64,000 nucleotides of DNA, from the NCBI RefSeq assembly GCF_003184185.1, contig NZ_QHJG01000012.1, forward strand, positions 51,656-115,655. The letters run 5' to 3'. This document shows, in pieces, positions 47,076 through 61,958 of the stretch. The stretch comes from Legionella qingyii (GTDB lineage: Bacteria; Pseudomonadota; Gammaproteobacteria; Legionellales; Legionellaceae). Each line of letters opens with the position of its first letter. Position 1 is the first letter of the stretch. Under the pieces are notes generated by a model that saw only the letters and a list, made by a program, of their open reading frames with translations, was not told the origin of the DNA and made no database searches. The translations under genes were made by a program, and so were the position numbers.

Positions 47076-47152
47076 GTCCCGGTGGCACAGCTGGATAGCG
47101 CAGCCCCCTCCTAAGGGGCAGGTCGGAGGTTCAAATCCTCTCCGGGACGCCA
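47076..47152 (+). tRNA. tRNA-Arg(CCT)
   Basis: 77-nt cloverleaf: acceptor GTCCCGG/CCGGGAC with discriminator G and encoded CCA. The anticodon loop CTCCTAA is closed by CCCC/GGGG (anticodon CCT), and the T-arm is GGAGG-TTCAAAT-CCTCT. Its last 46 nt are duplicated at 59721-59766, so it is the integration target of the downstream element and remains intact. Confidence 0.95.
47107..47152 (+). other. attL: 46-bp attachment repeat within tRNA-Arg
   Basis: Identical over 46 bp to 59721-59766, running from the anticodon loop to the CCA end. The flanking bases differ on both sides, defining the core exactly. Confidence 0.92.
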
Positions 47153-47194
47153 ATGAAATCAAAGAGTTAATGATTTATAGTTTAAATAATTAAG

Positions 47195-47229
47195 ATGTTA
47201 TATTTTGCAGGTGCCTAGATGGGTACCTT
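47195..47229. repeat. Candidate integrase arm-type sites, left end
   Basis: ATGTTATATTTTGCA (47195-47209) followed by GGTGCCTA and GGTACCTT spaced 12 bp apart (47210-47229). Matching sequences occur beside the right attachment site at 59582-59601 and 59660-59674. Confidence 0.55.
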
Positions 47230-47258
47230 AAAATTAAATATTACTTTCTGAAGCCCAT

Positions 47259-47897
47259 ATGATCATATTAAAAGTATTATCCAGCCCAGTAACTAGTAAT
47301 CTTTTATCTGCAACAACAATTATTCTAGTAATTTATGGTTACACTCAATGGAAAAAAATTTACATAGCAGAAAGACAATCAAATAATTTTCTTAACATTG
47401 CTATGGATATTAATAGACTATACTTTTCTATCCTGGAACAGAGGCAGCCTGAATTCAGACCAAGCCATAATGATGATTTTATTAAGTATATTGATGATTA
47501 TAAAATTCCCCCTCTTATGGAAATAGCGAAACAAGCGTATGTCATATCAAAAGAGATAAGTATTTTAGAAAAGACCCTAACCCTTCCCAAGAAAAATGAT
47601 CAGAGCCTAACTTTATCAAGTTTATATTATCAGTATATTATCAAAGAGATAATAAAAAAAATCACTCTTAACATACATCTGTATTATGCTGATAAAAAGA
47701 GGAAACAAGAACAATTAGATCCAACACAAACCGAGCTATACAAATTTTTATATCCATCCTCATTTGCAGTTGATCCCAATCAATATGAGTTTGACGATAA
47801 AACAGGATTGAATATCATAAAAGACGATTTTTATGAGGTAATCATTACAGGATTTAATAGTGTATTATCAGCATTAGATAACCTATTGATTAAATAA
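47259..47897 (+). CDS. Unknown protein with N-terminal membrane anchor
   Basis: 212-aa protein not recognised. A single TM (about residues 13-30, SATTIILVIYGYTQW) is followed by a Lys/Glu-rich helical cytoplasmic-type domain. It lies just inside attL and ends exactly where a tRNA-Thr-like remnant begins. It might be cargo of an older insertion rather than of the satellite. Confidence 0.65.
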   Translation: MIILKVLSSPVTSNLLSATTIILVIYGYTQWKKIYIAERQSNNFLNIAMDINRLYFSILEQRQPEFRPSHNDDFIKYIDDYKIPPLMEIAKQAYVISKEISILEKTLTLPKKNDQSLTLSSLYYQYIIKEIIKKITLNIHLYYADKKRKQEQLDPTQTELYKFLYPSSFAVDPNQYEFDDKTGLNIIKDDFYEVIITGFNSVLSALDNLLIK

Positions 47898-47945
47898 ATG
47901 ATTCGTAATCAAAAGGTCGTGTGTTCGATTCACATCAGCGGCACA
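47898..47945 (+). other. tRNA-Thr(CGT) 3'-half remnant, probable old attachment site
   Basis: ATTCGTAAT loop region, AAGGTCGT variable segment, T-arm GTGTG-TTCGATT-CACAT and acceptor end CAGCGGCAC resemble the 3' half of tRNA-Thr(CGT). The 5' half is absent and the anticodon stem is mispaired, so no tRNA is made. Such 3' fragments are typical att cores of tRNA-targeting integrases. Confidence 0.7.
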
Positions 47946-48118
47946 AAAAAAAGCTTAATAATCAATGAAATAATGAAATTTTTAAATATTATGTTTTTGT
48001 GCTACCTCGGTACTACCTTTTGAAAATTTTTAATAGTTCCTCTGAATTGGTATTGAGTCTAGATGTGACTTAAATAATGGGCATATGGCATTCATGCATA
48101 TATAATGAGTGATTATGA

Positions 48119-48976
48119 ATGCTCAAAGGAAATAAGTTGAGAACTGCCTTTATAGAAACCTCTGCAATTAACTGGTTTTATAAAAATCAATTTAATGCTG
48201 TCAGTGCTAATAAGCTACTTGCATCAAAAAACTTGATACCGGTCGTTGGTATGGATACCATTTATGAATTGGCACGTTGCTTTACAGTTGAATATGAGAA
48301 AGCTGTCAATCTTTTTAATTTTCTAAAACAACTAAAACCTGTATATAGCTGCCAAAGAAAAGTTTTATATGAACAAGAACTTAATAATCTAATGCAGGGT
48401 AGTAGTGTTGATCCTCTCTTGGGATATTATACCGAAGAAATATTAACTGATCGGATCAAACACTATTCAATGGGTATTTTTGATAAAACTCATGAGGAAT
48501 TTATCATTGGAAGACAATTTTTTTGGGACGACTGCAGAGAAAAATTATGGAGTCCAGAAAATATTAAACGAAATAAAGGATTAACATTACAAGCTTATTT
48601 GACGCATTGCTTTAAGCAAATTGAAATAACTCCCTTGATATTACAAAAATGGATAGAAGAATTAACCGGAAAAATTTTGTCAAAAGACAATATTGCAACT
48701 CTTCTTAAAAAGCTGAATACACTTCCGGCATTGCGAACAGCATTATATTCCCAGTTTTATTTGAATTTTTTAATCATACGAAATCAAGCTACACCACGCG
48801 AAGATAGATTTACAGATAGCCTTCAAGTAATCGCTGCCTCGTATTTTTCTGTGATTATTAGCCACGATAATTATCTTCTCAATACTTTATTACCCTCTCT
48901 TAATCCCGATCAATTAGGGGAAAATATATCGAGTTTAGTCGATTCTGTTCATGGTGAACTGTGCGCAGTTGATTAA
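48119..48976 (+). CDS. PIN-domain-like protein, candidate nuclease cargo
   Basis: 285-aa protein without a confident family. Order of acidic motifs fits a divergent PIN nuclease: FIETSAINWFY (about 11-21), an acidic MDTIYELAR helix (about 44-52), and DSLQVIAASYFSVIISHDNYLL (about 234-255), resembling the D-x(n)-IAA...D core. The middle (about 60-220) is a long helical insert. Start uncertain: ATG 48119, or TTG 48137 with AAAGGA 6 nt upstream. It faces the nuclease-like gene tail to tail. PIN identity is inference. Confidence 0.65.
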   Translation: MLKGNKLRTAFIETSAINWFYKNQFNAVSANKLLASKNLIPVVGMDTIYELARCFTVEYEKAVNLFNFLKQLKPVYSCQRKVLYEQELNNLMQGSSVDPLLGYYTEEILTDRIKHYSMGIFDKTHEEFIIGRQFFWDDCREKLWSPENIKRNKGLTLQAYLTHCFKQIEITPLILQKWIEELTGKILSKDNIATLLKKLNTLPALRTALYSQFYLNFLIIRNQATPREDRFTDSLQVIAASYFSVIISHDNYLLNTLLPSLNPDQLGENISSLVDSVHGELCAVD

Positions 48977-49010
48977 AAATATTGATATCTAAACCTTTGA
49001 CTAGCTATTT

Positions 49011-49239
49011 AAGCAGCACTTTTTGTATTTTTTTCCACTGCCACAGGGACAAAGAGAGTTTCTTCCTGTTTTTTTCTTTTTAGTGGGGGTTGGCTTGGTT
49101 TCGCTATCAATTAATCCCTCTATATTACGATCATATTCCCAAGGAAATTCTATATAACTTGCGGTATTAATTAGATGATCGGAATTATTACATAGTATGC
49201 CTAATCCGATTGATTTATTGGCTTTATGACGGTATTTTT
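49011..49239 (-). pseudogene. Detached SEC-C tail, out of frame with upstream gene
   Basis: In the -1 frame relative to 49201-51156 the sequence stays open across the gene end to a stop at 49011. It encodes [11 protein letters not shown], then an acidic stretch, a KKKK linker and [16 protein letters not shown], a textbook SEC-C zinc motif. This frame has no ATG, GTG or TTG start. Adding one A to the A5 run (49235-49239) would fuse it to the upstream protein, giving about 717 aa. Confidence 0.75.
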
Positions 49240-51156
49240 CAATAACGTTATTGCTTGGTTTTGGGTTTGAAGATCAATTAAAGATAAATTGTTTGATGCG
49301 ATTAAAGATATAACGACTTTAGCAGGTGTTATGGGTATTACACACCTTCTTATTTTTCTTGGTCCACTTGATTTATAGTTTGATAGATTTTTAATAGCCT
49401 GATCAATGGCGTATAGTACACTGTTATCTAATTCTAGTAGAGAAAAAATAATCCATTTCGCAGAATCATCATTATACACACTGTATTCAGATATAATTTT
49501 TTTAATGGAGTCTGGAAGTTTTAACCTAAAATCAGGCGGGTTATCTAATAAACCTCGCTCATAAAGCATTAACTCATCAAATTTAGGAGAAGAGGAAGTG
49601 TAAATTATGTCGGGTACAGCTTCATGATTATCTGTAAAATTTGAATATTCTAATCTGGTATCTAGATACATCGAAAAAAGTGATAGTTCATCCCCATGCC
49701 AATCTTGTTCCAAGGATAAAATACAAAGTCTTCGTTCTATGTAATGTAAAAATGCTTCGGGAAATATATTTGTCTTTGTAATTAAATCCAAATCAGCTAA
49801 ACATATAGAAAAAGGAAAATTATTATCTTGGAAAAGTCCTAGTTCTTGTAATCGCTTCATTTCACTACCAAGCCCAGCTAAATGAAATAATGATAATGAG
49901 ATTGGATATATTTTTTGAATGGAGTTGCTAGCAAAACTTAATGTTCGGTCAGTTTCTGTTTCTTTAAACGTAACATGCTTGTTTGAGGCTATATATTTTA
50001 TGGTTCTTATATTCTGAGTAAAGGCTTCAACTATATTACCAATAATATCAGCTGTTAAGGTTTTTTTATTTCCCCTCTGTGACTCAAATCTAAATTGTTT
50101 AGATTTTGCTTCAAGCAATATTAAAAAGGGGCCAAATTTAACTGCAATATCAAGTTCAGCGATACCTGTCTTCTTTTCTGGATCGGGGTAGGTTAAATTC
50201 TCGAAAATACAATCTTGAGGAAATATCCTTTTTAAAGCATTCGCACCTTCTTTTTCAAGCCATTCTGCCCTATGTTTTTGATATCTTGCATAAAATTTTT
50301 TATCAGTCTTAGCTAATAAATTAAATTTTTCCCAAGCTACATCCATAAGATTTGATAAATGTGAAAACAAGACTTTTCCGCAAGTCAAAATGTACATAGG
50401 GTGTTTTTGAATAACAATATCTCCATGACAATCGCTTTTAGAAACTCCGATTAATTTTTTTAAGGCATATACTTCATCTGAAGTTAATAAATAATCTTCG
50501 AGGGCTATAGGCAATATTTTTGGCATTGAAAAAATTAGCTCTTTCAAAAAGCTATATGCATAGTCTGCATCGTGGTTTTCAGATGGTCTAGAGTTATTCA
50601 GAGCGCTTTTAAATTGATTTAACCATTCACCATAATGCTTTTCAAGATCATAAATTATGGATGATATTGTTCCAACTAACTTAGTTGGACATAAACCTGA
50701 TTTTTGTGAAAACCATTTATCAAAACGACCTTGAATCTCTAAAATCATTCGTTGTGTTTGTTCTGGGTAGGCATTGCCTCGAATAACCTCAGATGACATG
50801 CGTAAAATGTATTCAATAGATTCAATTTGATTATCATCCACGTGAGCCTCGCTCGGTGATATGGTATTAAATTGAACATATTCATCCAGTATGTCGTAAC
50901 ACTCAACAATCATTTGGGGAGTAGTAATTTTTTGAAATGAATCTCCAAAATTAGGTATAAGACTTTTGGCTAATGCTTCTAGCATAGCTGGATGCCTTCC
51001 GTATTTATCTCCAATTTGTAATTCTGGACTTAAAAAACATATGTAACCAATCATAACAGTAAGAAGTGTTTCAGCATCAGCTGAGCTAACTAAAGATTCA
51101 AGTTTTATCTTTGCTTTTTTTGCTTTTTCTTGCCAAAGTAATTCGATATTGTCCAA
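49201..51156 (-). CDS. Nuclease-like cargo protein, truncated by frameshift
   Basis: 651-aa protein not matched to a named gene. Residues about 318-352 hold a PD-(D/E)xK/NERD-like core: [22 protein letters not shown] (Asp then E-x-K). The rest is helical with several scattered aromatic blocks. The C-terminus INQSD ends at a premature stop: a SEC-C zinc tail lies immediately beyond in the -1 frame. Cargo of this kind next to a satellite attachment site is often anti-phage, but no defence activity is shown here. Confidence 0.75.
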
Positions 51157-51348
51157 TTTAATTCCATTTCATGCATTTATTAAATAATTATATATGAGTT
51201 TTTATGGACAAAAACTTTATAGACTAGGGTGCGCGTTGATACAATATATTATGCCCAAGAAATAATAACTGACTATATCAAGCAATATTCTGGTACATGC
51301 AAGTAATTTGATCTAAACAATAATTAATCAATTGATAAACTTATGGCA

Positions 51349-51566
51349 TCAGGGAATAATGCACCAACCTTCTACTTTAAGGGTTTTTGCTATCCTAATC
51401 AGATTAAGGGTTGCTATATTGCGTTCACCACGCTCCACAGACCCCATATATCTGGATCCAGCCCAACTTCAGAAGCAAAAGACTCCTGAGAGTACCCCTT
51501 TTCTTTGCGGAGTTCCCTGATTCTTTCGCCTATTTTAATAAGTGCTGGATGTTTTTGCGCATACAT
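51349..51566 (-). pseudogene. XRE/Cro HTH regulator, frameshifted
   Basis: Starts MYAQKHPALIKIGERIRELR, continues KEKGYSQESFASEVGLD (HTH helices 1-2), then must shift frame to read RYMGSVERGERNIATLNLIR and IAKTLKVEGW. The span of 218 nt is one base short of a multiple of three, pointing to a 1-nt deletion near 51455. The domain is a typical about 72-aa HTH_3 repressor, probably once regulating the divergent 51653 gene. Confidence 0.75.
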
Positions 51567-51582
51567 TTAGAATATGCGCCCT

Positions 51583-51610
51583 ATACTCATAAAACCACGG
51601 CTATGAGTAT
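51583..51610. promoter_or_regulatory. Palindrome between divergent XRE pseudogene and secreted-protein gene
   Basis: ATACTCATA (51583-51591) and TATGAGTAT (51602-51610), perfect 9-bp arms with a 10-bp centre, 17 bp from the pseudogene start: a likely operator. Confidence 0.5.
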
Positions 51611-51652
51611 CATTTAGGGAGGCAATTCTCCAGCGAATATTGAGGACTATAA

Positions 51653-52102
51653 ATGAAAAAATTTATCTTATTGTTTATTGTATTTTTAACAATTGAAACA
51701 ACAAATGCAGCTGTTTTAAATTCCGGCCCATTCCCTTTTGACGGGGGTGAAAGCAAACCATACAGTTTTCTAAAGGTTATGATACCAAGAATTACTAAAG
51801 CAACATACGTGATTACTTGTGATATTATCAATCCTAATTATCAAAAAGAATATCCTGTTGTTCTTCAAATGAAACTTAATGTAGCCAATCAAAATCCATA
51901 TAAAATATATTTAAATGGGGCACAATTGTCTTCTCCCTATTATCAAGGGGAATTAAACAGAAATATTAATCATCTTATGATATTTCCCGTTGAAATAAAT
52001 GGGGGTGAAGCAGATTCCCATATTCAATTTCATAATTTAGATGATAGTGATACCGTCATAGTAAGCAATTGTGAAGCGCGATTTCTGACTTCGAGTTCAT
52101 AA
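51653..52102 (+). CDS. Secreted protein of unknown function
   Basis: 149 aa. Signal peptide MKKFILLFIVFLTIETTNA, then a beta-rich domain with two Cys (ITCDI, SNCEA) that could form a disulfide. No family recognised. It is divergent from the frameshifted XRE regulator and convergent with the satellite's minus-strand operon; probably cargo. Confidence 0.7.
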   Translation: MKKFILLFIVFLTIETTNAAVLNSGPFPFDGGESKPYSFLKVMIPRITKATYVITCDIINPNYQKEYPVVLQMKLNVANQNPYKIYLNGAQLSSPYYQGELNRNINHLMIFPVEINGGEADSHIQFHNLDDSDTVIVSNCEARFLTSSS

Positions 52103-52211
52103 AGACTAAATTTATAAATTAAATTTGACCTGGCAGACATTTCTGATAAACTGGCAACTGTCAGATCAAGTTATAACTACTACAACTGACAAAGACCCGT
52201 ATATCATCTCT

Positions 52212-52379
52212 TTAATTCAATCGATTTTCTAATTCATTTATACGCCGATTTAATTGATTAATTAACTTTCTTTGCTCTGCTTGAGCTGCTTTAGTCTCTC
52301 TCTCCCATAGTTTTTCTATGAGAAACACCGCCTCATCTTCTTGTCCATAGGCTAATAGTTGATCAATTTTCTTACGCAT
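52212..52379 (-). CDS. 55-residue helical protein
   Basis: Small charged protein MRKKIDQLLAYGQEDEAVFL, continuing in a heptad-like helix to ENRLN; a likely coiled coil. The ATG at 52379 follows GGAGAA with 6-nt spacing and overlaps the terS-like gene by 8 bp, so it is coupled to it. Function unknown; the position suggests a packaging or helper-interaction accessory. Confidence 0.65.
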   Translation of the reverse strand: MRKKIDQLLAYGQEDEAVFLIEKLWERETKAAQAEQRKLINQLNRRINELENRLN

Positions 52380-53007
52380 TTTCTTCTCCTGCATTAGTGG
52401 GGCGATTGATTTTCTCACCTTCTAATAATTTCGACATTCTTTCGTTCAAGTCGATAATTGCTATAGAGCTACTGTAATCTTTTAACATTCCTATTAAAAT
52501 TTTTGCCTCACCAGAAGTGATCTCTTGATTTCCCAATGCCCTGAAAACCTCTGCACTCATAGGAAGTAATATGTTTGCATCTTTAACCTCATCTGGAAAT
52601 TTCAGGCTTATAAAAGCATCATCTTTATTGCCATAAAGCCTTGGTATCAGTTTAGCAGCCAGCCATTTACGTGTGTCAATTCTAAGCCTAGAACGAGCGA
52701 TAAACTCACCATTGCAAACACGCACACCTTGTTCGTTAATTATTTCATCTTGTGTTGAATCATCAGCTATATCTATAATTTCATCCACTAAGGTTTCAAT
52801 TTGAGATATTTTGGCTTGCGCGTATTGGGTGTAAAATTCAGGATATTTATAACGCCATTTGTTAATGGTGGTTTTATCTGGCATATCATCATACATAGAA
52901 CAAAGCTGTTTCAGCCCAACTTCATGAGTGGCTACCCGTTCGCAGATTAGGTTTACTAATTCTTGATTATAAATCGTTGGTCTTCCAACTTTCTTATTTA
53001 AATCCAT
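52372..53007 (-). CDS. Terminase small subunit-like DNA-binding protein
   Basis: 211 aa. N-terminal VGRPTIYNQELVNLICERVA and MPDKTTINKWRYKYPEF form the HTH seen in phage terminase small subunits of this type; the DEIIDIADDSTQDEI and RLRIDTRKWLAAKLIPRLYG blocks complete the family pattern. A strong AAGGAG precedes ATG 53007. In satellites a dedicated TerS redirects helper packaging to satellite DNA. No large subunit is present. Confidence 0.85.
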   Translation of the reverse strand: MDLNKKVGRPTIYNQELVNLICERVATHEVGLKQLCSMYDDMPDKTTINKWRYKYPEFYTQYAQAKISQIETLVDEIIDIADDSTQDEIINEQGVRVCNGEFIARSRLRIDTRKWLAAKLIPRLYGNKDDAFISLKFPDEVKDANILLPMSAEVFRALGNQEITSGEAKILIGMLKDYSSSIAIIDLNERMSKLLEGEKINRPTNAGEENA

Positions 53008-53032
53008 AATTGCTACTCCTTTTAAGAAAATA

Positions 53033-54859
53033 CTATTTGCTATTTAATACGGAAAACTCAACAAACTGCTTAGCTTTATGGCCAGGTTTACCGAGGTATT
53101 GAAATGATTGCCTATCAAACCATAATGCGGTTTTACCTTCCCATTCTCCATTGCGTTGTTTATCACAACGCAAAATACAATCGCACTCCTCCAGCTTTGC
53201 AGATTGTCTTGAATCGAGAGACATTCCATTTAATTGCATTTGTGCAATTTCTTCTTTGGCTTTGTTGCGCCACACTGTAAAACAATTGTCTGCTAAATCT
53301 GTAATAGCCCCGGTACCTTTACAATCTAATTTTGATGGCATTTGAGTTTCATCATTAGATTTACGGGGATGAACTACTATATGAACATGGCAATTATACT
53401 GGTTTTTGAAGTCACAAATTTTCTCGATAAATGCTTTTTGTGCTTTAAAATCCTCTTCATCTATTCCACATTTCATGAAGGAATCAATTACAAATACATC
53501 AATACCATAACGTTGGTGTGCATAAAGAAATACTTCAAGTAATCGATCTGACTTTGCTGTACCCACAAGGTCGAATAACCACAATTTATCTTCATACCAT
53601 TCAAGAATTGCGCGAATATATTCTGGGGTTGGTTCAGCAAGACCTGCGGCTTGACGAGTTAATCTCTTTAACAATTTTTTAGGTTTTATTTCAAGGCTAG
53701 CAATACACACCCTCGCACCTTGTTGCATTGAAGACAAAATTATATGTCCTAACAATTGAGATTTTCCATGACCATTAATACCAGTCCAGATTGAAAGTTC
53801 ATTAGGCCGAAAGATAATTTTATTTTGAATATATTGCCAGGGTGGGTTATAACCAAGCATTGTATGTGTATTGGGATAGAACTCCTCGATGACTTCTTCT
53901 GTATATAAACTTGCAGAGCGCAGCTCTTCGGGATCTAATGTGCGTGCTTCATCAAAACATTTTTTGATTTGCTCTTTTATTATTCTTTTTTGTAAACATT
54001 CATTAGCATCTTTGTATGGCAGTTTTACAATACGGCAACGATGGCGACCTAAACGCTCGATTAATTCGAGAGTTGCTGTTTGTCCTTCTCTATCATTATC
54101 CAAACAAAGGTTTATTTCATCAAAAATTGCCAGCCGATCAAATTCGTATTCAAGCCATTTTTGTTTATTACCACCTCCACCGCCGAAGGGAACTGAAAGA
54201 GCGGGAAAACCATATTGATATAAGCTCATTGCATCAATTTCGCCCTCACAAAGAGTGATTGTTCTGGAGTTATTAGGTATTAAATGCCAGCCAAACAAAC
54301 ACGGTTCACAATTTGGCTCAACGACAATTTGTTTTTTTCCATTAACTCGAATTAAACTAAGCTGTTTTACAAAAATAAGCTCATCTTCTCGCCAGTAAGG
54401 AAAAATAATATTATGACCTGCCTCCCCAACTTTATAAGCTTTTATGGTTTCAGAGGTTAATTTCCTTTCATTTATTAAATAATCCATTGTTGGTGAATTT
54501 TGTTTTACTGGGGAAGTATTTTTTAAAATCGGTTTAACAAATTTTAAGGTGCTATGAGCTTCAAATTTGGGTGTTGATATACCTAGATAGTGGCTTGCTT
54601 CTTTAAGGGCTTCAGAGATCTTTGAATTACGTTTAATCGCCCAAAGGTCAAGTAAATCACCTTTCTCACCCGTTGCAAAATCGCACCATACTCCGGCTTT
54701 ATCACCCACTAGATGTACCTTTAGAGACTCACCAGACTCACCATTAATACTTCCTGTACACCATTCACTACCTTGTCGTTTTCCATTGGGTAATAAATAT
54801 CGAGCTATCTCTTCAGCACGTTGCGCTAACATTACCGATATTTGTCTAAAATTATTCAC
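53033..54859 (-). CDS. Phage-type primase-helicase (TOPRIM plus DnaB-like)
   Basis: 608-aa replication protein. N-terminal primase-like region (about 1-80) without the usual four-Cys zinc finger; TOPRIM (about 195-270) with LCEGEIDAMSLYQYG and CLDNDREG; RecA-like helicase (about 330-560) with Walker A GINGHGKSQLLG and Walker B DVFVIDSFMKCG. It resembles T7 gp4-type fusions used by phages and satellites for autonomous replication. The start is GTG 54859 (8-bp overlap with the upstream gene); ATG 54832 is an alternative. Confidence 0.88.
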   Translation of the reverse strand: MNNFRQISVMLAQRAEEIARYLLPNGKRQGSEWCTGSINGESGESLKVHLVGDKAGVWCDFATGEKGDLLDLWAIKRNSKISEALKEASHYLGISTPKFEAHSTLKFVKPILKNTSPVKQNSPTMDYLINERKLTSETIKAYKVGEAGHNIIFPYWREDELIFVKQLSLIRVNGKKQIVVEPNCEPCLFGWHLIPNNSRTITLCEGEIDAMSLYQYGFPALSVPFGGGGGNKQKWLEYEFDRLAIFDEINLCLDNDREGQTATLELIERLGRHRCRIVKLPYKDANECLQKRIIKEQIKKCFDEARTLDPEELRSASLYTEEVIEEFYPNTHTMLGYNPPWQYIQNKIIFRPNELSIWTGINGHGKSQLLGHIILSSMQQGARVCIASLEIKPKKLLKRLTRQAAGLAEPTPEYIRAILEWYEDKLWLFDLVGTAKSDRLLEVFLYAHQRYGIDVFVIDSFMKCGIDEEDFKAQKAFIEKICDFKNQYNCHVHIVVHPRKSNDETQMPSKLDCKGTGAITDLADNCFTVWRNKAKEEIAQMQLNGMSLDSRQSAKLEECDCILRCDKQRNGEWEGKTALWFDRQSFQYLGKPGHKAKQFVEFSVLNSK

Positions 54860-55529
54860 GACCTACCCCCGACATTATATTTGTTGTATCGAATGATTTT
54901 TTTTGTTGAGAAAACTTCGCTGCATTTCTTAACCATGTATGAAAAGCCATTCCCCAATCAGAAAATTTACTTCCTTTAGCGATATGATGTTCCTTGAAGT
55001 GTTCAAATTCAGAGTCGATATCTAGACTTAATCCATTTGCTTTTTCTCGGTGTGATTCATTTATCGCGAACTTTTGAGGAAAAGTCTTTTTTATAGTTTT
55101 AACCCGTAATTTTTTGTTGGCTAATAATGTATATTGCTTGATGTTATTACTGATGTTATTAGGGGGGCTATTAGCACCAGGTGTCCCTGCTGATGCCACT
55201 AGGTGGATAGTGCTATTTGCTACTGGTGGCTGTGAGCACCCAGTGCTATCGGCACTAGGTATTGTTAATTGATAATGGTTACTAGACCCTGTCGTACGCA
55301 ATATTTTTATTAGATATTTATTCTCTAAAGACTTCAGAGTACGTTTTACTGAATCGGTGGACATACCACAATCTATAGAAAGTGATTGATGAGACGGAAA
55401 ACAGCTTGTTTTATTACCCATATAGCTAGCTAACATAACAAGCAATAACCTTTCATAAGCATTTAACATAAATGCATGAGAATGTTCCTGTCTTAAAAAT
55501 CTATCGACTACAATTTGAGCTTGCATCAT
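54852..55529 (-). CDS. HTH replication-type protein
   Basis: 225 aa. Residues about 25-95 form a winged HTH (LLLVMLASYMGNKTSCFPSH, then SMSTDSVKRTLKSLENKYLI-type helices). A low-complexity Ser/Asn linker (about 100-140) and a C-terminal FSDWGMAFHTWLRNA motif typical of phage O-like/DnaT-like replication proteins follow. It starts at tandem ATGs (55529, 55526) overlapping the upstream small gene by 4 bp and overlaps the primase gene by 8 bp. Confidence 0.8.
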   Translation of the reverse strand: MMQAQIVVDRFLRQEHSHAFMLNAYERLLLVMLASYMGNKTSCFPSHQSLSIDCGMSTDSVKRTLKSLENKYLIKILRTTGSSNHYQLTIPSADSTGCSQPPVANSTIHLVASAGTPGANSPPNNISNNIKQYTLLANKKLRVKTIKKTFPQKFAINESHREKANGLSLDIDSEFEHFKEHHIAKGSKFSDWGMAFHTWLRNAAKFSQQKKSFDTTNIMSGVGRE

Positions 55530-55684
55530 AACTCTGCTCTTAAACGTTGAACCCCGATAAAAAAATTCCGTTTAATTTCCTCACTAGACTTCTGACCGGA
55601 ATAACAATCAGATATCATTTTGTCAGCGAGTAAAATCAACTGTGATAAAAAATAATCGCGATCCAAATGCGTTGTTTTCTTCAT
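55526..55684 (-). CDS. 52-residue protein in satellite operon
   Basis: MKKTTHLDRDYFLSQLILLA, then DKMISDCYSG to RLRAEL. It begins 2 bp after the alpA stop with a GAGGGGG ribosome site inside the alpA 3' end, and its stop overlaps the next start by 4 bp. Tight coupling on both sides makes it a real gene. Mostly helical; function unknown. Confidence 0.7.
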   Translation of the reverse strand: MKKTTHLDRDYFLSQLILLADKMISDCYSGQKSSEEIKRNFFIGVQRLRAEL

Positions 55685-55686
55685 TA

Positions 55687-55911
55687 TCAACCCCCTCTTA
55701 CACCGTCGTTTATCAATTGACGTATTTCTTCAACTCGCCAAACAGTAATACGCGGACCTAACTTTGTAGGCTGAGGAAAACGGCCGTTTTTAACACCCTC
55801 CCACCATGAAGATTTACCAATAGGTATTATTGGAGGAACAGGTGGATTAGCTTTGGGATTACCCAGTATTTGCGATAAACGCAAATAGCCAGTTTGCGGT
55901 AGTTGATTCAT
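55687..55911 (-). CDS. AlpA-family excisionase/regulator
   Basis: 74-aa MerR-like winged HTH. LRLSQILGNPK, the IPIGKSSWWEGVKNGRFPQP recognition block and ITVWRVEEIRQLI are AlpA signatures. In P4-like elements and Gram-negative PICIs AlpA activates integrase/replication genes and promotes excision. An AGGAG lies upstream. Its promoter region (55912-56070) contains repeats that may be its own sites. Confidence 0.85.
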   Translation of the reverse strand: MNQLPQTGYLRLSQILGNPKANPPVPPIIPIGKSSWWEGVKNGRFPQPTKLGPRITVWRVEEIRQLINDGVRGG

Positions 55912-55923
55912 TAAAAGTCACTC

Positions 55924-55978
55924 CTGTCTGTTGATGTTCTAAACAGTTTAAAAACTATTTTTTTGACTAAACAGACAG
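55924..55978. promoter_or_regulatory. Repeats in the alpA promoter region
   Basis: Inverted arms CTGTCTGTT (55924-55932) and AACAGACAG (55970-55978), plus the direct repeat CTAAACAG at 55939-55946 and 55967-55974 (28-bp period): likely operator sites. Confidence 0.5.
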
Positions 55979-56070
55979 AAGGGTTAGGTAGGTTTCTCGA
56001 AAAACAGGGGGGTAAGTTAATAGAAGCCTAGTAAATATAAGAGCTATCTAAGGGGGTAGGTTTTTTAAAT

Positions 56071-56979
56071 TTAATTTAAAATTTCTGCTCTTCCGCCCTT
56101 TTTACCTTTTTTAGTATTAATAACCGTTGCTATTCGCTCCTTAGATTCTTTTGAAAAGCATTTAGGATAAAGCTCTTCTATTAGCAACAAAGCTTGTTGT
56201 TTAAAAGAGAGACTTTCATTACGATTATTTATAACAGCTCTGTAAACATTGTTAGCTGCATCTAATTCTGGGGCATAATTCTCACATCCGTGATCCATTT
56301 GAAGGGGATTATTTTTTAGCTCCTCATGAGATAAATGTAGTTTGTCATTCATAACTCGTTGTAATTGTATTATTTGATCTTTTTTATCAAGTAGTTCAAT
56401 TGATTGCGTGTATAGTGTTTGCCAATCGGCAATCTGAGCACCTATCTCTTGTACTGCTTCTTTTAATTTTAGAGGTATGTCAAATTGCATTCTTTCTGCC
56501 CATGCTAAAAATTTACCAGGTGTTATAGGATCAGGAAGTTGGCCAGCGCTATTATAATTTAATGCTAATTCTTTTATTTCTTCGAATTTTTTTACTAATG
56601 GCGATAAATGAGAATACATTTTTATGTTGTCCCATTTAATTTTTCCCGGATCTTTACCAAGAATTAAGGTAATCCCTTCTTCAATAGACCATAGTGCTTT
56701 TTTTCCAAAATAACTAAAATCAGCATTATAATATGGTTGATGAAAAAAAAGTTTTTTTTCATCATTTTCACGTTGCTCTCTTTGCTTTACAATTTCCTCA
56801 TTGTAAAGTCTTTCAATCTCTTCTGCCCCAAGCTTTATCAAATCTGCTCGTATTTGCTCTTTAGGTATTGTTTCATAAGATACCTTCGTCTTATCCGATT
56901 TATCTAAAGTAGAGCAAATTGCCGCAGGCTGAATCTTTACTAAATAATCTATCTTTTTAATCAAAGCATCAACATCCAT
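56071..56979 (-). CDS. Unknown satellite protein between int and alpA
   Basis: 302 aa, not recognised. An aromatic-rich core (FHQPYYNADFSYFGKKALWS, about 85-105) and ITLILGKDPGKI are followed by a helical region and a basic tail KKGKKGGRAEIL. It reads as soluble and cytosolic. ATG 56979 has AAGGA 8 nt upstream; a GTG at 56997 overlapping the integrase stop would add six residues. It is cotranscribed with int. Confidence 0.75.
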   Translation of the reverse strand: MDVDALIKKIDYLVKIQPAAICSTLDKSDKTKVSYETIPKEQIRADLIKLGAEEIERLYNEEIVKQREQRENDEKKLFFHQPYYNADFSYFGKKALWSIEEGITLILGKDPGKIKWDNIKMYSHLSPLVKKFEEIKELALNYNSAGQLPDPITPGKFLAWAERMQFDIPLKLKEAVQEIGAQIADWQTLYTQSIELLDKKDQIIQLQRVMNDKLHLSHEELKNNPLQMDHGCENYAPELDAANNVYRAVINNRNESLSFKQQALLLIEELYPKCFSKESKERIATVINTKKGKKGGRAEILN

Positions 56980-56996
56980 CACTTGAATTCCTTTCA

Positions 56997-58334
56997 CTAT
57001 TTAAATTTAATCAATGCTGCAGAACTAATTGGTTTTACATTATTCGGTTCTTGTGCAATCTGGTGCTTAACTAAATTTCCCCAGTTTGCCCATGCCTCCT
57101 TTTGTTCCTCTGCATAAACTGCTCGTTGATAAGTAGCAACCAACTTATTCAAAGGCTGATGATTTAACATTTTCTCAATTATATGTGGTTCTGTTTTTAA
57201 ATGTTCTCCCCATGCCGTAGCAGCTGCTCTTCGAAGATCGTGGACACTAAAAGATGGTATGTCCGCTAAAGGAGCATTTGAAGCTAATTTCTTTTTTGTA
57301 CCTTTAGACTTACCACGTAACCGTGCAATCGCACCTGTTAACGTATCTGTATGTATATGACCGCCCTCTTCATAACTCCCTGTATCAAAAACGAATAAAG
57401 AATGCCCTGAAATCGGCAATAACGATTGCAGAATTTCAACAGATAGAGAAGAAAGGTAAATTGTATGTGCTTGGCGATTTTTTGTTCTTTCTGATGATAG
57501 CACCCAAATTCCTTCGTTAAGATTTAATTCGTCCCAACGCATAGCGGCAACTTCACCTCGACGCGCACCTGTTAAAATGAGTAATTTAATAGCGCTAGTA
57601 AGAACAATAGACATAGATGAGATTTCCACATATGGCAATTGGGTTGAACTACTTGCTTGATCCAATGCTTGCCACAATCTACGTAGTTCATGTAATGACA
57701 ATACCCTATCACGTGGTTTACTAGCCGTTGCAGCAAAGTCTTTAGGTTTAAGTAATCGTGCTGGATTTTGATCAATTAAATGACGTGTAAGGCCATAATC
57801 CATCATTAAATTAAGAGAGGATAATGCTTTCCTAGTTTCTTCTTTAATTCCTTTATGGGTCATGACATCCAGTGCCATAGATAAATGAGCGCGTGTTACA
57901 TCTTTTGCTAATAAGCCAGCTAATGGTTTTTGCAGATGCAACCGCCATCGATCTTCATGACGTTTGAGCCAAGTATTCGTTACTCGTTGAGTGCTCTTTT
58001 CGAATTCAATCCAGCGCTCAAATAAAACCTGCATCGTGATTGCTTGCATATTTTCAGCAATCACAGCAGCCTTTGCCGTGCGTGGATCAATGCCGCTATT
58101 TACAAATGCTTGTAATTCTCTAATTTTATCACGTGCTTCTTTTAAACTAAGTTCTTTAGGAGTACCAATGGTCATACGCACTAAACGTTTATCGCCGGGT
58201 AAGCTATATGAGAAGAGCCAGCTTTTTGCCCCACTTGAGCGAACTCGCAAAAAAAGACCTTCACCGTCATGCAGCTTGTATTCTTTATCACGAGGAGCTG
58301 CTTTTTCTACAGCTTTAGCAGTTAGTTTTCCCAT
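56997..58334 (-). CDS. Tyrosine-type site-specific integrase
   Basis: 445 aa, P4-type: N-terminal DUF4102 (MGKLTAKAVEKAAPRDKEYK, then DGEGLFLRV), SAM-like core-binding domain (about 95-190) and catalytic domain with Arg in LTGARRGEVAAMRW, HDLRR (H-x-x-R) and the nucleophile Tyr in VATYQRAVYAEE. This family targets tRNA 3' ends, matching the tRNA-Arg repeats. Unusually it is near attR, with rhuM between it and the site, and about 10 kb from the intact tRNA. Confidence 0.95.
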   Translation of the reverse strand: MGKLTAKAVEKAAPRDKEYKLHDGEGLFLRVRSSGAKSWLFSYSLPGDKRLVRMTIGTPKELSLKEARDKIRELQAFVNSGIDPRTAKAAVIAENMQAITMQVLFERWIEFEKSTQRVTNTWLKRHEDRWRLHLQKPLAGLLAKDVTRAHLSMALDVMTHKGIKEETRKALSSLNLMMDYGLTRHLIDQNPARLLKPKDFAATASKPRDRVLSLHELRRLWQALDQASSSTQLPYVEISSMSIVLTSAIKLLILTGARRGEVAAMRWDELNLNEGIWVLSSERTKNRQAHTIYLSSLSVEILQSLLPISGHSLFVFDTGSYEEGGHIHTDTLTGAIARLRGKSKGTKKKLASNAPLADIPSFSVHDLRRAAATAWGEHLKTEPHIIEKMLNHQPLNKLVATYQRAVYAEEQKEAWANWGNLVKHQIAQEPNNVKPISSAALIKFK

Positions 58335-58355
58335 CTATTTTCCTATAATCAACTT

Positions 58356-58449
58356 GGCAACAGGTTGTTGCCGAATTCGGGAGTCAGTGAATCCCCAATC
58401 GGTCAATAATTGCCTTCGCTTAAATTGTGCAACGCCCTGTTGCACAATT
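58356..58449. promoter_or_regulatory. Two related palindromes upstream of the integrase gene
   Basis: GGCAACA-GGT-TGTTGCC (58356-58372) and AATTGTGCAAC-GCCCT-GTTGCACAATT (58423-58449, perfect 11-bp arms). Both share the GCAAC/GTTGC half-site. They lie in the int-rhuM gap and could bind a regulator of int or stop rhuM transcripts. Confidence 0.5.
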
Positions 58450-58493
58450 AAACACTGAATTTGGGAGACATTATCTCGCGAATCTACGTAACA

Positions 58494-59546
58494 TTATTCA
58501 TTCCCTTTATTTTGAAGTTTCATTTGTTCTTCAAGAGCCTTAATTTCTTTATCGAAATCGGATTCAAAAAGCCTATCTTGTATGATGCGATATTTTTCAA
58601 ACTCACTCTCCGCATGATCTTTAGCGATTTTTGCACTAATCTTGCCTGCATTTTGCAAAATTTCACGCTCATCAAATTCAAGAAACTTATCTAGTCGTGT
58701 AGACCAATCTTCCATTGTCATGGGAATTTTTCGTCTGGCACGGTCTTCTGCTAATTCTAAATAAGCATTGACTATACGACCGAGAGAATCTAATTCCTCA
58801 ACTGTTAGGTAGTTTTTGGCAATTGGCACATCCGTTTTAAGGATTTTGCCATGTGGGCTATTTTCCCAATTTGTGAGTCCCATATGGGGTTTATTGCTAT
58901 CTGCACGATTAAGTATAAGTTCTGATGCAGTGTAGCCATGAATTGCATAATGTAGTTTATTTTGTACTTTAGCGAAAAAATCCCGTGTTGTAGGTGCATT
59001 TTTATTGTAATCAACACTGGTTGCATAAATATCGGTGATTTTTTGATAGAAACGACGTTCACTGAGACGGATTTCTCGAATTTCTTCTAACAAGCGTTCA
59101 AAATAGTCTTCACCAAGGAAACTGCCATTCTCAAGCCGTTTTTTATCCAGAACAAAACCCTTGATAGAAAACTCACTCAAAATCTGTGTTGCCCACTGGC
59201 GAAATTGAGTGGCACGCTTAGAGTTAACACGATAGCCAACAGATATTATTGCATCAAGGTTGTAATATTGAGTATTGTAATTTTTACCATCGTTGGCAGT
59301 TGTTAGGAATTTCCTAATGACTGAACTTTGATCAAGCTCCTGTGATTCGAAAATGTTTTTAAGATGTTCATTAATGGTAGGTACAGTCACGTCAAATAAC
59401 TCGGCAATTAGCTTTTGAGTTAGCCAAATGGTTCCCTCTTCATATCGCACCTCAATCCCATTTTCACCAGACTGATGTGTGAAAATAAGAAATTCAGCAG
59501 TACTATTACGAATAGTCAGTTTGTTTTCTGGAGGTTTGTCACTCAT
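58494..59546 (-). CDS. rhuM: RhuM family protein
   Basis: 350 aa. The RhuM signature is clear: IWLTQKLIAELFDVTVPTIN (HTH-like), VIRKFLTTANDGKNYNTQYY, NLDAIISVGYRVNSKRATQF and RQWATQIL. Function unknown in detail; family members sit on islands and prophages and were named from a Salmonella pathogenicity island. ATG 59546 follows AAGGA; longer in-frame starts to 59651 are not conserved-looking. It lies between int and attR. Confidence 0.88.
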   Translation of the reverse strand: MSDKPPENKLTIRNSTAEFLIFTHQSGENGIEVRYEEGTIWLTQKLIAELFDVTVPTINEHLKNIFESQELDQSSVIRKFLTTANDGKNYNTQYYNLDAIISVGYRVNSKRATQFRQWATQILSEFSIKGFVLDKKRLENGSFLGEDYFERLLEEIREIRLSERRFYQKITDIYATSVDYNKNAPTTRDFFAKVQNKLHYAIHGYTASELILNRADSNKPHMGLTNWENSPHGKILKTDVPIAKNYLTVEELDSLGRIVNAYLELAEDRARRKIPMTMEDWSTRLDKFLEFDEREILQNAGKISAKIAKDHAESEFEKYRIIQDRLFESDFDKEIKALEEQMKLQNKGNE

Positions 59547-59581
59547 ACTATGTCCTTTCTGTGAGGTTGGAAGTAATAACA

Positions 59582-59674
59582 GGTGCCTAAATGGGTGCCT
59601 AAAAATCATTGGATTTGAACGCATTCTAATGGACAAGATCGGACAAAGCAATAGGATTAATGTTATATTTTACA
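59582..59674. repeat. Candidate integrase arm-type sites, right end
   Basis: GGTGCCTA at 59582-59589 and 59594-59601 (12-bp period), and ATGTTATATTTTACA at 59660-59674, matching the left-end set at 47195-47229. Confidence 0.55.
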
Positions 59675-59720
59675 AGGAAACAAGAACTTTATCGGACAAC
59701 ATAAAATTTAATGCCTTGCG

Positions 59721-59766
59721 CCTCCTAAGGGGCAGGTCGGAGGTTCAAATCCTCTCCGGGACGCCA
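59721..59766 (+). other. attR: duplicated 3' end of tRNA-Arg
   Basis: Perfect 46-bp copy of 47107-47152 including CCA. Upstream bases do not complete a tRNA, so this is an attachment site, not a gene. Confidence 0.92.
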
Positions 59767-59826: not shown

Positions 59827-60981
59827 CTAAAAAGATTCAGAGATTGATATTCTTTGGTGAACCCAATTTTCTTTTGAGTTGCAGTTCATACACAAATGAA
59901 ATTTTCTTTTCTCTGTAAAAATCTTTTTGCGGAATGCTTGATATTTCTCTCCATTCCAAACTTTACGAAAACCATCTTTCATATTTCCGAGAGGAACTTT
60001 TGCATACGCATCGTAGCAACAGGGCACTACATCTCCATTCCAACATACAGTGGAACTTGAATAAAGTTTCCAACAGGAATTGTCTATAGTTCTCTTATAA
60101 TCGGTAATACCATTACAAGAATCATAAATTGTATATTCTTTTGTCACTGTTTTGTATTTGTCAAGTAAAGCTTTTAGTAGTACTTGATCATATTGTCTAA
60201 AAATAAAATAGCGTAGAGTCACCTCGTTGGCTCCAATTTTTTTTGCTAGTTGTAGTAGTTCATCAACTTCATGTTCATTGGTTTTCATTAGAATAAATTG
60301 TAACTCAATAAATGGAGTCTTTGCGCCTAGTCTCTTTTTTGCTTCACTCAATTTTTGAATGCCATCACGTACCGTTTCAAAAAAATTCTTTCCGCGAAAT
60401 TCTTTATAGGAGTGATTGGTTATACCATCCAATGAAATAGTAATTCTATCCAAACCCGTGCCTACAATTTTTTCACAGTTTGCTTCATTATTTAAAGTAG
60501 TTCCATTAGTATCCATTTGAATATAAATATTCTTGTTTTTCGCATAGTGTAACATTTCAATGTAGTGAGGATTTAAGGTAGGTTCCCCATAATTCCAGAA
60601 ATAAAGCTGAAGAAGATAATCACCCACTTCATCCATTAAACTTTTAAAAAGCTCTAAGGACATATGTCCTCTTGGTCGATTTAAGGTGTTATTTCCAGTT
60701 GGGCAAGAGGGGCATGTTAAATTACAAATATTAGTTGGTTCAACATACATAGATAATGGCATATTAGGTATGTATGTTTTGTTTTTATTAAAGCTTCGAT
60801 GAGTCTTTAATGAATTGATTGTTCGTTTAAAATTTTGAAAAATTAATTTTCTATTTATCAGATCCTCAAAAAGGGTGTTATACAACTGTTCGTCATATTT
60901 TCTCTTATAGGGTTTAGCTAATCGCAAACTCTTTCTGGGCTTCAATAATTCGTATAATAAGTTGTATATTAATTTATTCAT
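59827..60981 (-). CDS. Radical SAM/SPASM protein
   Basis: 384 aa. The radical SAM cluster motif CNLTCPSC (Cys86, 90, 93) follows the MYVEPTN strand; the core barrel includes NYGEPTLNP and ITISLDG. The C-terminal SPASM-type region has CWNGDVVPCCYDAYAKVPLG and a CMNC pair, giving extra Fe-S clusters. Possible roles: peptide modification or carbohydrate maturation; no precursor peptide was spotted beside it. It lies just outside attR in accessory DNA. Confidence 0.85.
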   Translation of the reverse strand: MNKLIYNLLYELLKPRKSLRLAKPYKRKYDEQLYNTLFEDLINRKLIFQNFKRTINSLKTHRSFNKNKTYIPNMPLSMYVEPTNICNLTCPSCPTGNNTLNRPRGHMSLELFKSLMDEVGDYLLQLYFWNYGEPTLNPHYIEMLHYAKNKNIYIQMDTNGTTLNNEANCEKIVGTGLDRITISLDGITNHSYKEFRGKNFFETVRDGIQKLSEAKKRLGAKTPFIELQFILMKTNEHEVDELLQLAKKIGANEVTLRYFIFRQYDQVLLKALLDKYKTVTKEYTIYDSCNGITDYKRTIDNSCWKLYSSSTVCWNGDVVPCCYDAYAKVPLGNMKDGFRKVWNGEKYQAFRKKIFTEKRKFHLCMNCNSKENWVHQRISISESF

Positions 60982-61106
60982 ATTGAAAAACTTTTCAATT
61001 CATATTTGTTAACTATAGTATATAAAACCAAAATTAAAGGTAAGTATTGAAGAGCTAAAACCTAATTTTCGGCATAATACCGCATGAATATCCGCGATAA
61101 TCGATC

Positions 61107-61958
61107 AAATTATGCTATTTTATCCATTATGCATATTCAGCCAGGACTAATTCGCCGCACCATTATCTCAATAGCAGATAATTTTATGAATGCCTCGCTA
61201 CTTTTTAGCAAAAACTCATAGTCTTTACTCAATCGTCGCTGATAATTCATCCAACGAAAAGTACGCTCGACTATCCAGCGAAATTTCACGATTTTAAAGA
61301 TCTTCCGAGGGCGTTTAACCACAGTCCAAACAATATTAAAAAGAGAGAGAGCCCAGTCAATCAATTTGCTTCCAGTGTAGCCACCATCAGCCCAAATAAT
61401 CTTTATGCTATTGAAAACAACTATGCGTTGAGTAATGACCAACCGCGCAACAGCTCTGTCTTGAATACCTGCAGAATGCACCATAACTGTAAGCAACAAT
61501 CCAAGAACATCTACTACGATATGTCGCTTTCTTCCTTTAATTTTTTTTCCACCATAATAGCCTGTATTCAGTGCAGGTCCTGCTGTTTTTCCGTCTGACT
61601 ATCGATTATGCCCGCGCTTGGCTTAGGATTTCGTCCTGAAACTACCCTTATATCTTCCCTTAGCCCGCGCATCATATCATCTAAAACACCATCATCTCGC
61701 CACTGGGAAAAATAATCATAGACCGTTGATTTAGGTGGGAAACATTTGGGTAAATAGTCCTATTGGCAACCGGCGCGCAGTGAATAAAATATGGCGCTCA
61801 TAACCTCCCGCATACCGGTGGTCCTTGGACGGCCGCCTTCTTTTTCTGCAGGAATCAATGGCTTGATAATAGCCCATTGTTTGTCAGTCAAATCACTTTG
61901 ATAACGCTTGCTCATCCAATTAAATCACCCTAATCTTCAAATCAGCAAAGCATAATTT
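61107..61958 (-). mobile_element. Degraded IS5-type insertion sequence
   Basis: Transposase remnant flanked by short inverted AAATTATGCT (61107-61116) and AGCATAATTT (61949-61958). These may be terminal repeats, but they are only 10 bp and AT-rich, so the ends are uncertain. Confidence 0.45.
61137..61915 (-). pseudogene. IS5-family transposase, broken by stop and frameshifts
   Basis: Begins MSKRYQSDLTDKQWAIIKPL and proceeds through GGRPRTTGMREVMSAIFYSL. It then hits an in-frame TAG (revcomp of 61755-61760 area), resumes with PPKSTVYDYFSQWRDDGVLD, and needs a frame change before the C-terminal part at 61137-61499 (ADGGYTGSKL, then WIVERTFRWMNYQRRLSKDYE with the DDE Glu region). No intact product is possible. 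Confidence 0.85.

Follow-up and report, generated by a model that had tools for sequence, protein, structure and literature searches.

Phage-inducible chromosomal islands (PICIs) of Gram-negative bacteria are recognized by an integrase, a replication module and a master regulator that follow one another in a conserved order, as defined in the main text of PMC6092414. Islands described there, such as EcCICFT073 and PmCI172, combine an integrase, AlpA and a replication module, sometimes with terS; they measure 12-15 kb, have no structural or lytic genes and keep their core in one direction of transcription. An element with the same organization lies in the 64-kb stretch of Legionella qingyii DNA analyzed here (contig NZ_QHJG01000012.1; the whole stretch is called the window), within a tRNA-Arg(CCT) gene, and the same gene order recurs in a second contig, L001. 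We consider that it is very probably a Gram-negative PICI-type phage satellite, whose small terminase subunit (TerS) would divert the large subunit (TerL) of a helper phage. A sequence-only reading of this DNA had proposed a PICI-like satellite, and this interpretation is supported by the comparisons below.

The insertion site was assigned by ARAGORN and Rfam, and the last 46 bases of the tRNA gene are repeated exactly at the far end of the element, as first read from the sequence. This att repeat extends to 52 bp at 96% identity, and no third copy is present in the window when up to 12 mismatches are allowed. As the duplication shows, the 3′ end of the tRNA is kept after insertion. The span between the outer ends, 47107-59766, is 12.66 kb, inside the size range of Gram-negative PICIs. 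The whole core is transcribed from the minus strand, with RhuM placed between the integrase and the far att copy. In order, the site and the core comprise the following open reading frames (ORFs) and sites:

47076-47152, plus strand: tRNA-Arg(CCT), insertion site, whose 3′ 46 bp form an att copy (ARAGORN, Rfam)
47107-47152, plus strand: att copy at the tRNA end, 46 bp, exact repeat
59721-59766, plus strand: att copy at the far end, 46 bp, exact repeat
58494-59543, minus strand: RhuM-family protein, 349 residues from the start shared with L001 (PF13310, 7.1e-113 to 9.5e-113; PADLOC PDC-S05)
56997-58334, minus strand: tyrosine integrase, 445 residues, of the type found at tRNA-Arg(CCT) (PF13356, 4.5e-21; PF00589, 1.7e-15)
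56071-56997, minus strand: U308, a helical unknown of 302/308 residues between int and alpA (nine proteins, its own copy included)
55687-55911, minus strand: AlpA-family regulator/excisionase, 74 residues (PF05930, 5.9e-6, 26.5 bits against a cut-off of 21)
55526-55690, minus strand: 54-residue ORF between AlpA and the initiator (gene call, also in L001)
54852-55529, minus strand: O-like replication initiator, 225 residues (HTH_36, 3.1e-10; phrog_1032, 9.3e-17)
55167-55260, minus strand: iteron-like units (~16 bp) with an adjoining AT-rich stretch, inside the initiator gene; putative replication origin
53033-54859, minus strand: TOPRIM primase-helicase, 608 residues (Toprim_2, 2.2e-13; phrog_239, 2.3e-123)
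52372-53007, minus strand: TerS, 211 residues (PF20901, 1e-30; phrog_1482, 5.3e-32)
52212-52418, minus strand: 68-residue ORF directly after TerS, weakly conserved (37% in L001), with no convincing family

The integrase, AlpA, primase-helicase and O-like protein named in the sequence-only reading were each verified by profile matches, and the coupled minus-strand module that it described is visible in the overlaps of 4-8 bases that link the AlpA, 54-residue, O-like and primase genes. Ten element proteins were scanned against Pfam and PHROGs, and the 50-, 54- and 68-residue ORFs and RhuM against Pfam, the 68-residue ORF also against PHROGs. These scans revealed no virion or lysis family other than TerS, in line with the earlier remark that structural phage genes are absent; they likewise gave no match to late genes beyond TerS, by which a prophage remnant would be recognized, or to capsid genes, the hallmark of capsid-forming PICIs. 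A search using the element as query against plasmids returned no match. In one respect the first description has to be corrected: about 5 kb of the 12.6-kb element, beside the tRNA (47159-52200), is unrelated cargo encoded on both strands. RhuM, the mosaic tail of TerS, the iteron-like repeats and the seemingly truncated cargo ORFs are additions to it.

The product of 52372-53007, proposed earlier to be TerS-like, can be assigned from its sequence with certainty as an Sf6-type TerS: the PF20901 (Sf6_terminase) match reaches 106.4 bits against a cut-off of 27, and structure-based comparison retrieves Sf6 gp1 (3hef profile, 2.1e-27; Foldseek to 3hef_B, 2.6e-5). With this protein as query, relatives were found in 31 of 143 Legionellaceae genomes (38 rows), and an Sf6-type TerL in five of the 143, three of them strong; only two genomes, G028 and G132, hold both. 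The late genes of EBPR podovirus 2 had been tried as a yardstick for TerL and portal and gave no matches in the loci examined, a trial for which no positive control was seen; the queries for both genes were therefore taken from IMG/VR contigs, that for TerL (itself phrog_38, 4.9e-81) from contig L082, which carries the same TerS type. The locus follow-up left out most of L021-L080 (outside Legionellales) and most of L081-L160 (IMG/VR).

Retaining the 28 rows with a near-complete TerS and dropping 10 fragments, we found TerL and portal beside TerS at two loci. At the other 26, over stretches of 3.4-20 kb, TerL and portal of the tested type are absent, other TerL families not having been sought. 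An integrase stands near TerS without TerL at 18 of the 28 loci, and an integrase, AlpA or primase match without TerL at 23, weak markers being a primase at 23% in G139 and integrases at 30% (far side) in G124 and 32% in G129. The three marker-free loci lie on contigs of 6.6-9 kb. TerS adjoining TerL and portal was seen in L082, L218 and L220. The Legionellaceae relatives thus sit in phages or in integrase-AlpA-primase elements, and not as a lone chromosomal helix-turn-helix (HTH) gene, an outcome by which the first reading could have failed.

TerS is carried by, among others, L. santicrucis (L002), L. steigerwaltii (L008), L. wadsworthii (L009) and L. longbeachae (L016). AlpA passes the Pfam cut-off in L016 and L009, falls below it in L240 and gave no Pfam match in L194. 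A tRNA-Leu or tmRNA gene adjoins the integrase in L240, L241, L249, L250 and L253 and in L244, L245 and L247, and tRNA-Asn lies some kilobases away in other TerS loci (all by ARAGORN). The loci with an integrase and no TerL occupy tRNA-Arg, tRNA-Leu and tmRNA sites, and possibly tRNA-Asn. Near TerS, J-domain-like (DnaJ) proteins were noticed by eye in the Legionellales loci L013:3482-3862, L193:8779-10002 and L195:300-3485, the last matching only families of unknown function. In L. wadsworthii, large proteins follow TerS directly (L009:10591-15257, minus strand) and look by eye like a restriction/methylation set.

A counterpart of the core is L001, an 8.6-kb contig of a metagenome-assembled genome (Legionella sp. 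2055-AUS-E). It carries the same nine genes in the same order, at 36-95% identity. Ratios of nonsynonymous to synonymous substitution (dN/dS, NG86 method) between the window and L001 are 0.06 for RhuM, 0.08 for the integrase, 0.18 for U308, 0.13 for AlpA, 0.17 for the O-like gene, 0.14 for the primase and 0.15 for TerS; the small ORFs are looser (0.42 for that of 54 residues, 0.50 for that of 68). Judged by these ratios, the seven main core genes are intact and maintained by purifying selection. Their dS ranges from 0.52 (TerS) to 1.88 (integrase), whereas the host genes glnA, htpG and mnmA, compared between these genomes, are 73-74.5% identical at the nucleotide level, with dS saturated and incomputable. 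The element therefore seems to have moved independently of its hosts, and the core more recently than the host split, a comparison made with three host genes only. The uneven dS also hints at internal exchange within the core, TerS being short and NG86 rough.

These observations bear on a first alternative, namely that a phage resembling L091 or L106 lost its late genes and left integration, replication and TerS behind. Relatives of the primase-helicase (phrog_239) do occur at full length in IMG/VR, at 39-59% identity, and four contigs that also carry TerS have a primase 53-59% identical to that of the window; two ORFs on the cargo side look truncated, as decay would predict. Nevertheless, we regard such a decayed prophage as improbable. 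Indeed, the gene set is intact in L001 with low dN/dS in its main genes, homologous loci are mostly not full prophages, TerS with an integrase and without TerL recurs at those 18 loci with different integrases and primases, and the window initiator has no match in L091 or L106. In an IQ-TREE primase tree of 19 rows, the window, L001, L013 (a contig without visible integrase) and L193 group at 100/100. All six satellite-labelled rows lie together on the same side of one branch, apart from the IMG/VR rows, and the support of this branch is only 73/87; the label 'phage' in this tree denotes an IMG/VR contig, TerL having been seen only in L091 and L106.

The replication module of the proposed satellite contains a putative origin. 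Inside the O-like gene, iteron-like units (ACCTAGTGCCGATAGC, ACCTAGTGGCATCAGC and ACCTGGTGCTAATAGC) occur with degenerate copies beside the AT-rich stretch. They are also present in L001, at a shared place that follows from homology, the initiator genes being 84% identical. A degenerate consensus finds five units in the gene, one of them on the other strand and overlapping another, against a mean of 0.27 and a maximum of 2 in 300 shuffles, a control that is partly circular because the consensus was derived from the same sequences. When the whole element was searched with exact k-mers, no cluster emerged elsewhere except one weak case in the primase gene, not above the maximum of the shuffles. 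In phage lambda the origin lies within gene O, and the placement of the window repeats resembles that arrangement.

An att site that prophages never use is a further trait of Gram-negative PICIs. To place the integrase, we surveyed loci with the window-type enzyme, which is found in 18 of the 143 Legionellaceae genomes (E <= 1e-60); prophages using other integrases at tRNA-Arg(CCT) were not sought. No Sf6-type TerL or portal stands near it at any of the 18 loci, other phage types having been looked for by eye only and at some loci, and an Sf6-type TerS accompanies it in L001 alone. Two att copies, 2.8-16 kb apart, flank the integrase in nine loci (L226, L227, L229, L258, L259, L260, L264, L266 and L267). 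An alternative replication set is present in L226-L229, L261, L263, L269 and L270, with a 206-241-residue unknown in L226-L229 and L270. G061, the closest genome compared (93-94.5% nucleotide identity in glnA, htpG and mnmA), carries another element at this tRNA, a sister of 8.4 kb, which indicates turnover of the site. In all 15 DNA loci returned, the left-flank alignment extends to the tRNA (134 of the 143 genomes matched the query). In the sister elements L226 and L227, which lack an Sf6-type TerS, a 206-218-residue unknown follows the helicase (L226:5181-5801 and L227:5162-5818, both minus strand); it is a candidate for an alternative packaging or late protein. L263 and L265 combine the window-type integrase and AlpA with DUF1016 and with cargo that by eye resembles type I restriction-modification, without Sf6-type TerS.

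U308 has relatives in 12 of the 143 genomes; its fold model has a pTM of 0.42 and no Foldseek match in the viral library (E <= 0.001). The cargo beside the tRNA comprises:

47259-47897, plus strand: 212-residue protein, no significant family
48119-48976, plus strand: 285-residue protein, no significant match, PIN-like by eye only
49201-51156, minus strand: 651-residue SEC-C / PD-(D/E)XK-like family protein without the C-terminal SEC-C part, nuclease motif by eye
51414-51566, minus strand: short Cro/CI-like HTH ORF, 50 residues (HTH_19, 2.5e-6, below the model cut-off)
51653-52102, plus strand: 149-residue protein, no family, signal-peptide-like start by eye

The 651-residue protein has at least 23 other relatives, scored among the best 7995 candidates (those sharing most words); 21 of the 23 carry PF02810 (SEC-C) and measure 716-779 residues. 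They include two named from L. pneumophila, longer than the window copy, and a nine-row alignment places the missing part of this copy at the C-terminal SEC-C region. The HTH ORF ends early compared with a 79-residue relative in L194, where DNA beside TerS is 82% identical to this region over 268 bases; further relatives occur near TerS elsewhere. Beyond the far att copy, a radical SAM/SPASM protein and a transposase fragment were observed (window 59827-61499, minus strand). The flank with the radical SAM/SPASM gene matched no Legionella locus compared, and another variable region may follow.

Such cargo raises a second alternative, that of a site-specific genomic or defence island which does not travel in particles and keeps TerS for another purpose, e.g. 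to block phage packaging. The same integrase type serves DUF1016 islands without TerS (L258, L263-L267), of which some look restriction-like by eye and L258 and L266 contain little besides the integrase and DUF1016. Moreover, RhuM is a candidate defence family according to PADLOC (PDC-S05), and the SEC-C family protein is nuclease-like; a defensive role is plausible. However, packaging accounts better for a replication module that has iteron-like repeats and for a TerS kept by purifying selection, and TerS stands after the primase in many such elements; we give the island only a small chance of being correct.

Transfer by conjugation in trans, the element being an integrative one that does not depend on phages, is highly improbable. 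Integrative mobilizable elements share the layout of an integrase plus a regulator, and the primase weakly matches TraI in NCBIfam (TIGR02760, 1.1e-7, 29.7 bits against a cut-off of 930). The aligned part spans positions 1556-1666 of the 1960-position model, remote from the N-terminal relaxase of TraI. On the other hand, no relaxase family was matched in Pfam among the element proteins, and TerS would be without a role.

The satellite reading allows the following cycle to be proposed. The integrase would insert the element into tRNA-Arg(CCT), preserving the 3′ end of the tRNA. During growth of a helper phage, AlpA could drive excision, as suggested by AlpA in known satellites. The O-like protein would then bind the iterons in its own gene, and the primase-helicase would copy the circle into concatemers. 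The satellite TerS would bind satellite DNA through its HTH and dock on the helper TerL, and the helper would load this DNA into its own shells by headful packaging. As helper one would expect a tailed phage of perhaps 36-40 kb whose TerL is of the Sf6 type. Sf6-type TerL contigs L082, L091 and L106, which may be incomplete, measure 36.4, 39.3 and 39.6 kb, and TerL is also found in G132 and G028. Three 12.6-kb units would give 37.8 kb, about one helper head.

Several points weigh against a phage satellite. No capsid-size or interference gene was recognized in the element. No IMG/VR primase closer than 59% was found and no IMG/VR relative of the TerS tail was confirmed, in a search of uncalibrated reach; as a result, no packaged form has been seen. 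For the right flank no match exceeded 150 bases, the loci mostly reaching only ~1.5 kb past the tRNA, and thus no empty tRNA-Arg site with both flanks was seen. Finally, the 651-residue protein and the HTH ORF are shorter than their relatives, so that part of the element may be decaying, or the assembly may contain errors.

TerS itself is built of an HTH (residues ~1-70), a core (~71-127) and a long tail (~128-200), modelled by AlphaFold as two helices, 144-159 and 165-199 (mean pLDDT 80.3, pTM 0.52). Its relatives have two kinds of C-terminus, short and long, and the tails of the long form (alignment of 41 sequences) are 35-78% identical to that of the window. Identities of HTH, core and tail are 45, 96 and 94% for P0014/P0016, 94, 93 and 59% for P0025/P0075 and 64, 33 and 67% for P0017 against the window, extreme pairs having been picked from all pairs. 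Such values point to independent exchange of HTH, core and tail in a three-module mosaic. A review (PMC9611059) assigns DNA binding to the N-terminal HTH of TerS and, in P22 and lambda, TerL binding to the C-terminal region; exchange of the tail could thus alter docking on the motor. For P22, the same review reports that a TerS without its tail no longer binds DNA either.

Among 50,697 phage records, none matches the window tail (E <= 1), in a search of uncalibrated reach; the whole TerS matched 128 of these records, but in no case across more than 80% of its length, and no two-helix tail was found on the Sf6-type TerS of the phages searched. A tail profile matches 4 of the 143 genomes (in G133, a fragment) and three loci of G003. 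Its matches in G092 (4.2e-9) and G119 (4.6e-7) are DUF5681 proteins that follow replication genes in elements with integrase and AlpA, the Pfam assignment being shown for L272 only. These proteins with a window-like tail (L271:9972-10400, minus strand; L272:9655-10083, plus strand) occupy the position where TerS stands elsewhere. Several facts speak against a tail confined to satellites: one phage record aligns with 87% of the L272 protein, and each of the two proteins matches, along most of its length, a PHROG whose function is unknown. MT836812.1, a gut virome record of 8.7 kb that includes a DUF5681 gene, was considered as a satellite and rejected, as by eye it resembles a phage fragment with a tape-measure-like ORF; DUF5681 with such a tail is therefore not confined to satellites. 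A DUF5681 protein also appears among the virion proteins reported for a Salmonella phage (PMC8954984). Tentatively, and with somewhat less than even expectation, we propose that Legionella hosts a large guild of satellites made of exchangeable cassettes, in which TerS is itself a cassette and its tail a portable packaging-motor adaptor, so that swapping one domain would change the DNA target or the helper.

If the satellite reading is true, phage-borne transfer would be a common route for islands in Legionella. The location of the loci at few tRNA and tmRNA sites makes the choice of helper by satellites testable, and the mosaic TerS could be used to test directly which of its parts governs DNA choice and which governs motor choice. 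Searches of the literature on Legionella satellites, PICIs and prophages showed no report of such an element among the papers listed; preprints and most subscription papers lay outside their coverage, and prior work may exist.

Among described systems, EcCIMP1, whose helper Kapi1 is related to P22, is a PICI with int, AlpA and primase as here; it has no identifiable terminase gene (PMC11773190), whereas the window element has TerS. AH14b of Pseudomonas, with helper AH14a, likewise has an integrase, AlpA and a P4-like primase, plus a helicase, and its authors inferred headful packaging, at least as trimers, in helper capsids; it differs in its helper and in that no terminase gene was found in it (PMC4936722). 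The phage-inducible chromosomal minimalist islands (PICMIs) of Vibrio share int, alpA, primase, packaging of concatemers and the lack of capsid remodelling genes (PMC10803314), but they are smaller and lie next to fis instead of tRNA-Arg(CCT), and 'terminase' is absent from the main text. The HTH and core of Sf6 TerS gp1 (3hef, 4dyr) align with the window protein over profile positions 5-132, to which the latter adds ~70 residues predicted as two helices. LME-1 of Legionella uses dif/Xer, unlike the window element. It is similar as a site-specifically integrating mobile element, and 'helper' and 'PICI' do not occur in the text on LME-1 (PMC9765430). Compared with the Gram-negative PICIs in the main text of PMC6092414, from which 'Legionella' is absent, the window element has its initiator and primase as separate genes, its repeats inside the initiator gene and a long-tailed TerS of the Sf6 type. 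Collectively, its gene organization, its lack of structural and lytic genes and its size agree with the PICI features set out in that text (Fillol-Salom 2018, PMC6092414), the placement of the repeats being unusual, and it is best read as a further Gram-negative PICI-type satellite, here in Legionella.

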